Shown: piece after piece, positions 34,082 to 38,368 of the stretch
Position numbering within the stretch: the first letter of the stretch is position 1
Layout: every line of letters starts with the position of its first letter
Source: Guptibacillus hwajinpoensis
GTDB lineage: Bacteria; Bacillota; Bacilli; Bacillales; Guptibacillaceae
Assembly: GCF_001039475.1 (NCBI RefSeq)
Contig: NZ_LELK01000004.1
Coordinates: 1,207,676 to 1,271,675 of the forward strand
DNA: 64,000 nt
Direction: 5' to 3'
Translations under genes and position numbers: made by a program
The notes under the pieces: generated by a model
The model's input: only the letters and a program-made list of their open reading frames with translations
The model's database searches: none
Told to the model about the DNA's origin: nothing

Positions 34082-34549
34082 ATGGCATTTTGGAATAAAA
34101 AAGGTAAGGAAAAGAAGGAATCTACTCAAGCGAAAGTAATAGATGTTTCCATTCAAGAGGTTAGAAGAGCGATTAGCACATTTGCTGAAGAGAAAAGGGA
34201 TGGCATTTCACTAAAAATTCTAGTGCTAGAAGACAACTCGATTGACCATTCCCTTCTAAGTTCTTATTTAGGAGGAATTCCTTCAGAGCCATTTTTTATG
34301 TCTAAAGAGACTTTTGAACTTTTTGAGGGTAAAGACAAACACATTCCTTTTTGGATTGATAAAATGCAAAAAGCTGTTGATACCTATATTCGAACGGAGG
34401 AGGAACTTCCGGTTATTGATGGGGATCCGTTTCGTAAGCTCAGTTTCTATAAGCTTGAAAAAAAGGCTATGCTACAGGAGAGACCTCCAATTGATTTCTA
34501 TTTAACAGAGCAAGAACAAATGGTATCGCACCGTAAGCCAGAAAAATAA
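34082..34549 (+). CDS. DUF3939 protein
   Basis: A 155-residue cytosolic protein that matches my recollection of the Bacillus DUF3939 family: a short lysine-rich N-terminus (MAFWNKKGKEKKE), then VIDVSIQEVRRAI, LSSYLGGIPSEPFFMSKETFELFE and a conserved VIDGDPFRKLSFYKLEK to PPIDFYLTEQE end. Function is unknown. The ATG at 34082 follows GAGGAGGTG; the longer frame would place that RBS inside the gene. It stands 51 bases before the DUF4178 gene and may be the first gene of the PspA cluster. Confidence 0.82.
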   Translation: MAFWNKKGKEKKESTQAKVIDVSIQEVRRAISTFAEEKRDGISLKILVLEDNSIDHSLLSSYLGGIPSEPFFMSKETFELFEGKDKHIPFWIDKMQKAVDTYIRTEEELPVIDGDPFRKLSFYKLEKKAMLQERPPIDFYLTEQEQMVSHRKPEK

Positions 34550-34600
34550 GCGAAACTTTATTGAAATCAGTTCGTAAATAGAAGAGAGGAGGGTTTGAAG

Positions 34601-35110
34601 GTGGGATTTCTATCGAAATTGTTTGGGAAGAAAGAAGAAGAAAATACAGTTGAAGAAAGAACAGTAATGAATATCCAGGTCGGGGATATTATAACGTATG
34701 ATCTTGAAGATTATCAGGTTGTAGGAACATTGACTTATACTGTAAGAGGGTATAAATGGCAGGCCTATCAGCTTCAATCTGAAGGATCATCGATCTGGCT
34801 TAGTGTTGAAATGGATGATGAGCTAGAGCTTGGCATTTACAAAACAGTTAAAGAAAAAGTATCAAAACCAATACCAAAAGAATTAACGATAGATGGTGTT
34901 GTTTATTATCAGGATGAACATGGGCATGCTAATGTGTCTGGTAAAGGCCGAGGAAGTAATGTGAATGGCCAGGATGTCGAATATTATGACTTCTCCAATG
35001 AGGAAGAAACGGAATTTCTATCAATTGAGATTTGGGGATCTGAGATAGAAGTCAGCAAAGGCTATGAAATTGAAGAATATGAAATCAAAATTCTTGCTGG
35101 AAGCAAATGA
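34601..35110 (+). CDS. DUF4178 protein
   Basis: A 169-residue protein dominated by beta-strand-rich sequence. The N-terminus FLSKLFGKKEEE is basic/amphipathic, and the DUF4178 core contains NIQVGDIITYDLEDYQVVG, YQLQSEGSSIWLSVE and YYDFSNEEETEFLSIEIWG. DUF4178 proteins recur beside PspA and DUF350 genes, but their chemistry is unknown. GTG at 34601 gives normal spacing to GAGAGGAGGG, while TTG at 34595 is too close. It is 14 bases before pspA, so the two are almost surely cotranscribed. Confidence 0.85.
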   Translation: MGFLSKLFGKKEEENTVEERTVMNIQVGDIITYDLEDYQVVGTLTYTVRGYKWQAYQLQSEGSSIWLSVEMDDELELGIYKTVKEKVSKPIPKELTIDGVVYYQDEHGHANVSGKGRGSNVNGQDVEYYDFSNEEETEFLSIEIWGSEIEVSKGYEIEEYEIKILAGSK

Positions 35111-35124
35111 GAGGATGAGTATTA

Positions 35125-35796
35125 ATGTTTAGTATGTTTAAACGAGTTAAAACACTTATGTCGTCTGAGTTAAATGCTGCTCTTGATAAGGCGGAAGATC
35201 CAGTTAAAATGCTCGAGCAATTCATGCGTGATATGGAAACGGACATTCGGGAAGCAGAGACAGCAGTTGCAAAGCAAATTTCTAATGAGAAAATGCTAAA
35301 GAAAAAATGGGATGATGCAAGTGCGATGGTCACAAAGCGACAAGATCAAGCTGTAAAAGCCCTTGAAGCAGACAATGATGACCTTGCAAGAAGAGCGCTT
35401 CAAGATAAGAAAGATCATGAAACAAAGGCAGAGACGTTGAAAGAGTCTTATGAGAGAGCAAAAACAGATGCGGATACTCTACGCTCGAAGCTTGATGAGA
35501 TGAAAGAGGAATACCGTCAAATGCAGTTGAAGAAGGATAGCTTGAAAGCACGTGCAGAATCTGCAAAAACAAAAACAAAAATAAATCGCGCAATGTCTGA
35601 CATTGGTGGAGACGATTCCCGACGTGGCTTTGATCGTATGGAAGAGAAGGTTCTTCAGTATGAAGCTGAAGCAGAAACAAGTGAGGATATGCGTTCGAGC
35701 AGTCGTTCTCTTGATGACGAGCTAGATTCGCTTGATAAGAATAACGGAATTGATGATGAGCTTTCAGAACTTAAGAAAAAAATGGGGAAAGAATAA
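35125..35796 (+). CDS. PspA/IM30 family phage-shock protein
   Basis: A 223-residue, nearly all-helical coiled-coil protein of the PspA/Vipp1/LiaH family (an ESCRT-III relative) that binds stressed membranes and forms oligomeric scaffolds. The N-terminus MFSMFKRVKTLMSSELNAALDKAEDPVKMLEQ is the characteristic amphipathic helix and first hairpin; the long charged coiled coil runs to about 180. No LiaFSR genes are adjacent. Instead it sits between DUF4178 and DUF4247 genes, with an aminopropyltransferase downstream. This points to a paralogue separate from the Lia response (inference). Confidence 0.9.
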   Translation: MFSMFKRVKTLMSSELNAALDKAEDPVKMLEQFMRDMETDIREAETAVAKQISNEKMLKKKWDDASAMVTKRQDQAVKALEADNDDLARRALQDKKDHETKAETLKESYERAKTDADTLRSKLDEMKEEYRQMQLKKDSLKARAESAKTKTKINRAMSDIGGDDSRRGFDRMEEKVLQYEAEAETSEDMRSSSRSLDDELDSLDKNNGIDDELSELKKKMGKE

Positions 35797-35823
35797 TACT
35801 TTCCCCTTTAATGGGGTGGAAGA

Positions 35824-36381
35824 ATGAAATGGCTAACAGGATTGCTGACAGCATTCATTCTGCTCTTATCGGCATGTGGAATCACGAAGGATATTCAAGA
35901 AATCGTGGAGGACCGATATCAGCTTGAAGATGTAATTGAGAGCAGCGTTGATTCGGGAGATGTTTCTAAAGTCTATAAGGCTGATAAAGATCTCGCATCC
36001 GTTGCCTCCTATCTTCAGGATCAAATTAAGCCGAATGAAGTCAGTGAAGTTAAAGAAGGAAAGCAAATTCTTGTTTATGATGATTATATTGTTACGTTAT
36101 CTGAAGAAGACTCTAATACCCTTGTTGAGGTAGCAACTGTAGGTTTTGTTAGAGATAACTACCAACCGAGCTTTTTTGATGGTTTACTAGCTTATTACAT
36201 ACTAGACGAAATACTTGACGTTGATGACTGGGGTAAAAAGCAAAAAAATCGTTGTAATAGTAGTAGCGGAAATTGCTATGGAGGCTACAGTGCAACTGGT
36301 GGGGCATATAAAGGTCCTACAAATACACCATCATTTCGAGGATCTAGTAGTCGTGGTGGCGGACCAGGAACAGGAAAATAA
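35824..36381 (+). CDS. DUF4247 lipoprotein
   Basis: A 185-residue secreted lipoprotein. The signal ends in lipobox LLSAC with the lipidated cysteine at about residue 18. A mixed alpha/beta region follows (to about 115), then a Cys-Ser-Gly-rich segment (NRCNSSSGNCYGGY) and a glycine/arginine-rich tail SSSRGGGPGTGK. The DUF4247 assignment is from architecture and neighbourhood. The two extra cysteines in the tail could form a disulfide. It would place part of the system outside the membrane. Confidence 0.82.
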   Translation: MKWLTGLLTAFILLLSACGITKDIQEIVEDRYQLEDVIESSVDSGDVSKVYKADKDLASVASYLQDQIKPNEVSEVKEGKQILVYDDYIVTLSEEDSNTLVEVATVGFVRDNYQPSFFDGLLAYYILDEILDVDDWGKKQKNRCNSSSGNCYGGYSATGGAYKGPTNTPSFRGSSSRGGGPGTGK

Positions 36382-36399
36382 TTAAAGGAGAGTTTAGAT

Positions 36400-36795
36400 A
36401 TGGGGCCATTTTTATTAACGTTTTTATATTTTATTGCATCCATCGTAGTGGTAGCGATTGGACTTGTTATATTTGAATTAATCACAACGAAATACAAAGA
36501 TTGGGAACAAATTGAAAAAGGGAATACAGCTGTAGCCCTCTCGATCGGAGGCAAGATCGTTGGTATTTGTTTGATTCTCGCCTTTTCCATCTATCATAGC
36601 TCAGATGTACTTGATACTGTAATTTGGGGCGCTTATGGAGTTGTCTTACAACTGGTTGCTTACTACATTTTTGACTTTCTTACGAGACGGTTCTCTGTAG
36701 AACAGAAACTCAATGAGGGCGTTGTATCAGTAGGCATACTATCAATGTGCGTATCGATTGGATTAGGGTTGGTAGTCGGAGCTTCTATTACGTAG
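36400..36795 (+). CDS. DUF350 membrane protein
   Basis: A 131-residue protein with four predicted membrane segments (about 4-26, 45-64, 72-93, 107-129). FELITTKYKDWEQIEKGNTAVALSIGGKIVG is the conserved DUF350 pattern with Lys, Glu and Asn before the second helix. E. coli YjfL, another DUF350 protein, is also encoded beside a PspA homologue, so the association spans phyla. Molecular function is unknown. It is 18 bases after the lipoprotein gene with the RBS AAAGGAG. Confidence 0.88.
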   Translation: MGPFLLTFLYFIASIVVVAIGLVIFELITTKYKDWEQIEKGNTAVALSIGGKIVGICLILAFSIYHSSDVLDTVIWGAYGVVLQLVAYYIFDFLTRRFSVEQKLNEGVVSVGILSMCVSIGLGLVVGASIT

Positions 36796-36823
36796 AAGAA
36801 ATTCACAGCTGAAGGTGAAATAC

Positions 36824-38368
36824 ATGAGCAAGAAAATGAATAAAAGCAGTCAGCTGTACTGGGCTTCAGGAATTGTATCCATTTGTGGAATTATTTTTGA
36901 AGTGTTATTCGGTGCGCTTGGCTCATACATACTTGGTGACGGAGTTAAGCAGTATACGCTAACTATTTCTCTTTTTCTAACTGGGATGGGTATTGGTGCA
37001 TCCTTAAGCGAAAGGGTCGTTAAAAGACTTATTACAAGATTTATAGCCATCGAGCTTCTTATTGGTTTGATTGGTGGCTTATCAAGTTTCACTGTTTTCG
37101 GTATTACAGCTGTTGCTGGTGAAGAAGCAACAGCTATAGTTTTGTATAGCATTATTTTGGTGATTGGTGGTCTTACAGGACTTGAATTACCTATACTCAT
37201 TCGAAAAGCAAATGAGATTGGCGTTGAAATGAATAAAAGTACTGCCCGTGTGTTGTTTTCTGATTATGCAGGTGGGCTTGTCGGTGGGTTACTCTTTGCC
37301 TTTTACTTAAGACCTGAGTTTGGATTAGTGAAGTCTGCGTTTCTTGTCGCGCTTGTTAACATTTCCGTTGCCTTTTGGATGATTTATGCTTTTCGTAAGG
37401 AGATCGTGCATCGAGTTAGCTATCTAGTCGTGGCGATTCTTATCTTTCTATTAATGATTGCTGGAACGATTTTTGGTGAAGAAATTGCTTTTTCATTTGA
37501 ACAACGTCTTTATAAGGATCCGATTATTCACTCAGAAGAAACGTCCTATCAGAAAATTATCCTTACGAAAGAGCAGGGTGATGTTCGACTCTTTTTAAAT
37601 GGGCAACTTCAGTTTAGCTCAAGTGATGAACACAGGTATCACGAGCCGCTTATTCACATCCCTATGGCTGCTGCTACAAAAACAGAAGATATTTTAATTC
37701 TTGGCGGTGGCGACGGATTGGCTGTAAGAGAACTCCAAAAATATGAGGAGGTAAAATCGATTACAGTTGTAGACCTCGATCCTAGAATGGTGGAGCTTGC
37801 TTCAGAAAATCATTTGTTAACAGAATTAAATGGACATGCTTTTGAGGATGAACGTGTCAGGGTCATTCATAAGGATGCTTTTCAATATATTGAGGAAGAT
37901 AATAATCGTTATGACGTTATTATATCTGACCTTCCAGACCCGAATAATGAATCGTTAAATAAGCTATACACGTGGGAATTCTATTCTATGTTGAGAAATC
38001 ATCTCCGTTCAGACGGTGCTTTAATGGTGCAGGCGACAAGTCCTGTTTTTGCAAGGGAAGCGTATTGGACCATTTCTAGAACAATTGAAGAAACAGGGCT
38101 AATCACGTCAAATTATCACGTTGATATCCCGAGCTTTGGTAACTGGGGCTTTGTAATGGGGACGAGGAAGCCAATCCAACAGAACAAATTAGATGTTGCT
38201 GTTGAGACGGATTATTTATCATCTGATATGATTCCTTCTCTTACCTCGTTTGGCAAAGATGAGGATGAGCATATCATAAAAGATGGAGAAGAAGTTACCT
38301 TTGAACCGAACACCTTAATTCGCCCTCATTTAATTGAGAAGTATGAAGCTGCCTGGTTGTATTATTAG
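36824..38368 (+). CDS. Membrane-fused spermidine synthase-like aminopropyltransferase
   Basis: A 514-residue protein with about seven transmembrane segments in residues 12-215, followed by a spermidine/spermine synthase domain. That domain has the SAM-site GGGDG (about 293-298), VVDLDPRMVELA and the catalytic-loop ISDLPDPNNESLNKLY near 368. Classical SpeE is soluble and about 280 residues; the membrane part is a distinct family often found near PspA and DUF350 genes. The acceptor is not known and may not be free putrescine. The ATG at 36824 follows GAAGGTG. It is the last gene of the cluster, and no clear terminator was seen in the 204 bases downstream. Confidence 0.88.
   Translation: MSKKMNKSSQLYWASGIVSICGIIFEVLFGALGSYILGDGVKQYTLTISLFLTGMGIGASLSERVVKRLITRFIAIELLIGLIGGLSSFTVFGITAVAGEEATAIVLYSIILVIGGLTGLELPILIRKANEIGVEMNKSTARVLFSDYAGGLVGGLLFAFYLRPEFGLVKSAFLVALVNISVAFWMIYAFRKEIVHRVSYLVVAILIFLLMIAGTIFGEEIAFSFEQRLYKDPIIHSEETSYQKIILTKEQGDVRLFLNGQLQFSSSDEHRYHEPLIHIPMAAATKTEDILILGGGDGLAVRELQKYEEVKSITVVDLDPRMVELASENHLLTELNGHAFEDERVRVIHKDAFQYIEEDNNRYDVIISDLPDPNNESLNKLYTWEFYSMLRNHLRSDGALMVQATSPVFAREAYWTISRTIEETGLITSNYHVDIPSFGNWGFVMGTRKPIQQNKLDVAVETDYLSSDMIPSLTSFGKDEDEHIIKDGEEVTFEPNTLIRPHLIEKYEAAWLYY

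Follow-up and report, generated by a model that had tools for sequence, protein, structure and literature searches.

The 64,000-nucleotide stretch of Guptibacillus hwajinpoensis DNA analysed here (the window; contig NZ_LELK01000004.1, positions 1,207,676 to 1,271,675) carries six same-strand genes at its positions 34,082 to 38,368, encoding a DUF3939 protein, a DUF4178 protein, a PspA/IM30 family protein, a DUF4247 lipoprotein, a DUF350 protein, and a spermidine synthase (SpeE) domain fused to a membrane domain, termed membrane SpeE (mSpeE) below. A previous sequence-only reading had described them as a set with short gaps, and this was confirmed by Pfam and NCBIfam matches, with gaps of 14-45 bases (in order 45, 14, 27, 18, and 19). 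The lipobox LLSAC and the GGGDG and D-L-P-D-P motifs noticed in that reading are all present, and both enzyme motifs are invariant in the homologues. The features of the operon are as follows:

34082..34549, +, DUF3939 protein (PF13075, 166 bits)
34595..35110, +, DUF4178, predicted cytoplasmic all-beta protein (PF13785, 120 bits)
35125..35796, +, PspA/IM30 family membrane scaffold (PF04012, PspA_IM30, 155 bits)
35824..36381, +, DUF4247 surface lipoprotein, proposed acceptor (PF14042, 51 bits; lipobox LLSAC)
35875-35877, +, codon of Cys18 in the DUF4247 lipobox LLSAC
36355..36378, +, C-terminal tail GGGPGTGK of DUF4247 (from the sequence)
36376-36378, +, codon of the terminal Lys of DUF4247, proposed modification site (from tail invariance beside mSpeE)
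36400..36795, +, DUF350 (YjfL-type) four-helix membrane protein (PF03994, 126 bits)
36815-38368, +, mSpeE, whole gene (Pfam Spermine_synth, 133 bits; NF002956, 593.5 bits, cut-off 472)
36815..37510, +, mSpeE residues 1-232, seven-helix membrane domain, predicted N-in/C-out (hydropathy, bias in Lys+Arg, AlphaFold2)
37523..38365, +, mSpeE residues 237-517, catalytic domain of spermidine-synthase fold, predicted extracytoplasmic (Foldseek)
37703-37717, +, GGGDG motif of mSpeE
37928-37942, +, D372-L-P-D375-P motif of mSpeE

The DUF4247 proteins diverge over most of their length, yet share the same kind of C-terminal end. In a first set, 61 of 63 ended in GK and 62 of 63 had GGG within the last 14 residues, compared with 17 and 10, respectively, of 1288 other open reading frames (ORFs), and both DUF4247 exceptions came from operons lacking mSpeE. 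As a contrast set, 151 Paenibacillales genomes were used, 99 of which had DUF4247; 70 were read in detail, two of them with full mSpeE. Here, DUF4247 ended in a basic run (e.g., GGGRIMRRR and SGSFKRR) in 69 loci, and the single exception, with the end VRGGGPGVGK, was the copy beside mSpeE (L282/L289). Moreover, the second mSpeE genome (G401) harbored both kinds, with the end RGGGPDEGK beside mSpeE and the end SSKKR on a copy 65 kb away. After duplicate genomes were dropped and actinobacterial copies added, the GGGx(1-5)GK end was found in 64 of the 65 DUF4247 proteins linked to mSpeE versus none of the 70 in operons without it. The terminal residue was Lys in all 65, including the lone exception, which ended in GGPGGTK, likewise two mycobacterium-like copies outside the table. 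DUF4247 proteins without mSpeE instead had encoded ends of the RRR or KRR type, and the number of Lys plus Arg among the last six residues was 1.0 next to mSpeE versus 3.8 without it. A strict link between the tail and mSpeE is nearly certain, and both the tail and the link are apparently undescribed before.

Where a locus had no DUF4247, its ORFs were screened for an end resembling the DUF4247 tail. This revealed small unannotated exported peptides of 58-80 residues, located just 5' of DUF350 or mSpeE, with the same type of tail and a hydrophobic segment at the start, in Chloroflexota, Nitrospirota, Gastranaerophilales, Acidobacteriota, and Gemmatimonas:

Ardenticatenales (L129), 59 residues, ending ...RVSGGGPGSGK
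Anaerolineae (L139), 58 residues, ending ...IMGGGPGSGK
Nitrospirota (L155), ending ...RMGGGPGAGK
Gastranaerophilales (L124, L151), 80 and 76 residues, ending ...HGGK and ...SGGK
Acidobacteriota or Gemmatimonas (L126, L128, L134, L138, L150, L156, L157, L160), about 60 residues, ...SVRDNPGAYRSHY...YFGGK, the end in L134 being LRGK

A Pfam search with four of these peptides matched no family. An S-[VI]-R motif upstream of the tail was common to many of the small peptides and to DUF4247 tails. Counting both kinds of partner, a tail ORF stood in operon position in 81 of 95 mSpeE loci versus 7 of 6274 background ORFs (0.1%), one of the 81 (L152) probably being a chance match, and loci of soluble SpeE gave five weak tail matches in 1581 ORFs. 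Among the 14 loci scored as tail-less by automatic placement, three are truncated by a contig boundary, a tail ORF is in fact present in L212 and L163, and L130 encodes a short exported peptide ending in SHK.

The AlphaFold2 model of mSpeE was confident (pLDDT 90), and the best Foldseek match of its C-terminal domain was the aminopropyltransferase 1uir of Thermus thermophilus (E 4e-16). The 83 mSpeE and 38 soluble SpeE proteins that were compared have Q246, D271-E272, Y275-H276-E277, GGGDG (297-301), D322, D354, D372, and P376 in common, and these residues constitute the donor site and the catalytic centre, whereas the differing residues belong to the acceptor side. Position 408, two residues after a conserved Gln, was Thr in 81 of 83 mSpeE versus acidic (D/E) in 29 of 38 soluble SpeE, and position 441 was Phe in 82 of 83 versus Tyr in 33 of 38; in addition, Arg274 and Pro374 were invariant in mSpeE only. 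We take the acidic residue 408 to be the one that holds the distal amine of a free diamine in solved SpeE structures. Its loss would fit an acceptor with a peptide at the far end, and Arg274 is a candidate for binding the C-terminal carboxylate. Compared with soluble SpeE (1uir, 3anx, 7xif, and 1iy9), mSpeE thus has the same fold, donor site, and catalytic Asp, but differs in its membrane domain, in Thr for the acceptor-side acid, in the invariant Arg274, and in the tail protein of its operon.

Hydropathy averaged over the 83 homologues revealed seven hydrophobic segments in mSpeE. The side that includes the N-terminus and loops 2-3, 4-5, and 6-7 had 12.4 Lys plus Arg per protein, compared with 2.9 on the opposite side, which carries the start of the catalytic domain; because this bias had the same direction in all 83 homologues, the catalytic domain is predicted to be extracytoplasmic. 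In the AlphaFold2 model the helices span residues 2-40, 43-65, 72-101, 103-134, 139-192, and 200-232, with residues 139-192 forming one helical element, and the break between transmembrane (TM) segments 5 and 6 was placed by hydropathy and an RPEFG turn. An outside catalytic domain agrees with the nature of the tail proteins, which are either lipoproteins or carry signal anchors. Furthermore, DUF4178 and DUF4247 were fused through one TM helix in 17 loci (including L118, L122, L132, L137, and L148), and positive charges preceded the helix in 13 of the 17, suggesting that DUF4247 is outside; such a fusion would connect the cytoplasmic and outside parts of the system. In 12 loci a flavin amine oxidase gene lies 3' of mSpeE, and most readable N-termini of its products, mis-called ones having been left out, had a twin-arginine (RRxFL-type) or lipobox signal.

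A profile built from nine mSpeE proteins was run on 84,980 species genomes and returned at least 80 loci, whose ORFs were called and then labelled with iterated profiles seeded from the window proteins. The sequence-only reading had named co-occurrence across genomes as the thing to look for, and the scan indeed recovered a recurring DUF4178-PspA-DUF4247-DUF350-mSpeE neighbourhood, in an order nearly invariant among Bacilli-type loci at several unrelated genomic sites; this conservation in Bacilli is far beyond chance. Across 91 loci, DUF4178 was present in 77, DUF4247 in 63, PspA in 46, and DUF350 in 64, the last count being too low because half-size copies miss the length limit. Accessory genes near the operon encode a decarboxylase of S-adenosylmethionine (AdoMet; PF02675) in 22 loci, the flavin amine oxidase-type protein in the 12 mentioned, an RCK potassium channel in 9, and a band-7 protein in 6. 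In a sample of 149 Bacillota genomes, six had full-length mSpeE and nine DUF4178, with an overlap of five of the six, always within about 4 kb. In 149 Actinomycetota genomes, nine had mSpeE and all six genomes with DUF4247 were among those nine; the Corynebacterium glutamicum control genome was positive for mSpeE, DUF4178, and DUF4247. DUF3939, which had been listed as part of the set, did not hold up as a core member: it adjoins the operon in 3 of 91 loci, all in the window's own family, and is therefore a local neighbour and probably not a core part of the operon.

These results strengthen the earlier proposal of a polyamine-type reaction (modification or transfer) at the membrane surface and make it specific, with the C-terminal Lys of DUF4247 as the likely acceptor and the catalytic domain predicted outside. 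We somewhat favor the view that the substrate of mSpeE is an exported protein, whose C-terminal lysine receives aminopropyl groups outside the cell. SpeD, the AdoMet decarboxylase, would make decarboxylated AdoMet in the cytosol, and DUF350 together with the seven-helix domain may carry this donor across the membrane. DUF4247 would be exported, lipidated at Cys18, and display a flexible Gly-rich tail with a single terminal lysine, the side chain of which, (CH2)4-NH2, would offer a putrescine-shaped acceptor. With its catalytic domain on the outer membrane face, mSpeE would then move at least one aminopropyl group from decarboxylated AdoMet to the epsilon-amine of this lysine, and the product would be a polycationic surface tail contacting anionic membrane or wall polymers. 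Cytoplasmic DUF4178 may couple the system to the state of the membrane, where PspA would hold it in Bacilli and a TM helix of its own in other groups. For the wider statement we see even chances, namely that an outward-facing SpeE-family enzyme aminopropylates the Lys of an exported protein or micro-peptide, possibly repeatedly to yield a polypropylamine tail, and that in some phyla an amine oxidase exported by the twin-arginine route makes an aldehyde for cross-linking.

Regarding the supply of the donor, the window's genome has two copies of SpeD elsewhere, away from the operon, while SpeD lies next to the operon in the 22 other loci. PF02675 was found in 46 of 50 mSpeE genomes tested and in 9 of 11 in another set picked for mSpeE or DUF4178. 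A strict dependence of mSpeE on SpeD was also considered and finds no support in the Actinomycetota.

Several observations weigh against aminopropylation of the tail outside the cell. Among Actinomycetota with mSpeE, only three of nine had PF02675; a recognisable AdoMet decarboxylase was not found in G335, G305, G355, G283, G329, and G316, several of which have near-complete contigs, and five of these six genomes still carry the tail. The PF02675 search was likewise negative in the C. glutamicum control, and in these Actinomycetota the donor may therefore differ, or the decarboxylase may be of an unrecognised type. No precedent was found here for decarboxylated AdoMet crossing a membrane, which the proposal requires, and the charge bias is the sole basis for the predicted sidedness of mSpeE. 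Moreover, eight mSpeE loci with enough sequence truly have no tail. The nominal Fisher p of 3e-38 for the covariation of tail and mSpeE overstates the evidence because the sequences in the table are related; neither the contrast between the two copies in G401 nor the occurrence in many phyla depends on this p-value. Finally, a conserved tail of this kind can be a docking element instead of a substrate.

The next best explanation, although we regard it as unlikely, is that mSpeE, anchored in the membrane, makes a free polyamine (spermidine or longer) that is released there or exported across it, and that the lipoprotein with its tail only binds the product or the enzyme. Its fold and catalytic residues are those of free-polyamine synthases, its NCBIfam name is polyamine aminopropyltransferase, and the seven-helix domain of one homologue has weak similarity to the major facilitator superfamily; however, the window's genome already has two soluble SpeE paralogues besides mSpeE, the acceptor-side acidic residue is lost in 81 of 83 mSpeE, and the terminal Lys of unrelated exported peptides would be left unexplained. 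Less probable still is a tail that acts as a docking or autoinhibitory element, its C-terminal lysine serving as a pseudo-substrate in the mSpeE active site that senses or gates the enzyme. This would account for the covariation and the strict C-terminal position without covalent change, whereas, where mSpeE is lost, the tail itself encodes additional Arg/Lys, as though charge were what the system delivers, and the adjacent exported amine oxidase implies that the polyamine group is made outside. Quite improbable, finally, is a cytosolic catalytic domain that modifies the lysine of the pre-lipoprotein before export, as ATP-dependent ligases of the Escherichia coli YjfC type would have to, since the seven helices and the positive-inside pattern in 83 of 83 homologues put the domain outside, even though decarboxylated AdoMet and ATP are cytosolic and the E. 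coli YgiC/YjfC genes adjoin genes of DUF1190 proteins with a Gly-Gly end.

If aminopropylation of the tail by mSpeE is correct, it would be a new class of protein modification in bacteria, the aminopropyl counterpart of hypusine, spread across many phyla, with extracytoplasmic use of decarboxylated AdoMet and a family of overlooked genes of 58-80 residues. The tail offers a concrete substrate, residue, and mass shift for a cluster listed for years without a known product, and the long-open question of what links PspA and DUF350 to a membrane spermidine synthase is reduced to one mass-spectrometry experiment. Hypusine in eIF5A is made from spermidine by an unrelated enzyme. Like the proposed product, hypusine and the modified lysines of silaffins carry propylamine or butylamine units on the Lys epsilon-amine, but both are eukaryotic and involve internal lysines. 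In the silaffins of diatoms, aminopropyltransferases are suspected of making the polyamine-modified lysines (PMC3820600).

The sequence-only reading had called the set poorly understood. At the gene level, the operon type was already published by Ravi et al. 2024 (PMC11237479), so the association as such is not new; this part of the statement needs correction, while no experimental study of the operon (membrane SpeE, DUF4178, and DUF4247) was found in the literature searched. In that paper, a PspA-based system was proposed to monitor polyamines or aminopropylation of other substrates, and a second CesT/Tir group and DUF4247 variants were described. The published type and the window operon agree in their type of gene order and share a 7TM-fused spermidine synthase domain, DUF350, DUF4178, and PspA in one operon as well as a surface lipoprotein, which is DUF4247 here and Ctha_1186 in the paper. 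In contrast, the main text of the paper, in which 'lysine' and 'glycine-rich' each occur 0 times, does not describe the Gly-rich Lys tail or its covariation with mSpeE, nor the small peptides that carry such a tail, nor a catalytic domain outside the cytoplasm. The window operon also differs in combining DUF4247 with PspA, and a CesT/Tir partner was not found: no Pfam CesT/YjfI match occurred among its proteins, and an hhalign comparison of DUF3939 with the CesT/Tir-like YjfI was not significant, the DUF3939 profile comprising only three sequences.

The E. coli yjfIJKLMC cluster encodes YjfJ (PspA), YjfL (DUF350), the DUF1190 protein YjfM ending in ...ARGHWGG, and YjfC. YjfJ and YjfL had been described as neighbours, and they do lie in the same gene cluster, but yjfK sits between them. 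RefSeq names YjfC a peptide-spermidine ligase, an activity that E. coli YgiC/YjfC reportedly possess (Pederick et al. 2023, Biochemistry 62:899), and the product of ygiB, which adjoins ygiC, ends in ...SSRSMGG. Both yjfM (L292:8388-9026) and ygiB (L293:1745-2416) thus encode DUF1190 proteins with a Gly-Gly end beside peptide-spermidine ligases, and this end is likely a C-terminal acceptor for spermidine. The two systems share PspA and DUF350 relatives and a polyamine enzyme beside a protein with a Gly-rich C-terminus. They differ in that E. coli has an ATP-grasp ligase and a Gly-Gly end, probably forming an amide at the carboxylate, compared with the SpeE fold and Lys end here; no ATP-grasp ligase was found among the six window genes, and the window tail ends in GGGPGTGK and so has no C-terminal Gly-Gly of the YjfM type. 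By analogy, the E. coli ligases and mSpeE may use different chemistry to the same end, a polyamine on the C-terminus of a surface protein, which would amount to a common principle.

The window PspA fell below the NCBIfam equivalog cut-offs for PspA (114 bits; cut-off 243) and LiaH (120 bits; cut-off 380), and no PspF/PspB/PspC or LiaFSR partners were found among its neighbours (ald, the operon, and ytkL/ytoI-like genes), bearing out the earlier remark that the usual Lia/Psp regulators are absent. The link to PspA holds in Bacilli but does not extend to all groups: in Actinomycetota, Acidobacteriota, and Lachnospiraceae-type loci, the enzyme occurs with its tail partner and DUF4178 while PspA is missing, and a band-7 protein takes its place in some of them. 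PspA was rejected as a defining member because roughly half of the loci lack it, as do all the Actinomycetota loci that were read. DUF4178 had no TM helix where PspA was in the locus in 40 cases and its own TM helix where PspA was absent in 29, with neither in 10 and both in 4, these counts not being independent of each other. This suggests that PspA may be a membrane adaptor for DUF4178 in Bacilli. The AlphaFold2 model of DUF4178 (pLDDT 92) was all beta, and in a Foldseek search of the PDB no structure reached E<=0.001, the best being lipocalin/FABP-like at 0.14; therefore, no function is claimed from the fold.

Some loci depart from the usual composition. Between DUF4178 and mSpeE, seven Acidobacteriota loci (L126, L128, L138, L150, L156, L157, and L160) encode DUF350-like proteins of half the usual size (about 70 residues), which apparently have two helices. 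The Paenibacillales loci L215-L284 carry a DUF4178-DUF4247 operon without mSpeE, often with DUF350 and PspA, and with an encoded Arg/Lys tail. In Paenibacillaceae (L286, L287, and L288), soluble proteins of 314-320 residues are close to the mSpeE catalytic domain, without membrane helices and without a nearby tail ORF. In the window itself, a promoter and terminator scan of the operon gave no more hits than shuffled sequences and was hence uninformative. CrcB-type genes and alanine dehydrogenase (ald) lie upstream of the operon, and a gene for a metallo-beta-lactamase-fold hydrolase lies downstream together with other genes, these 3' genes resembling ytkL, ytoI, ytpI, and ytqI of Bacillus subtilis.

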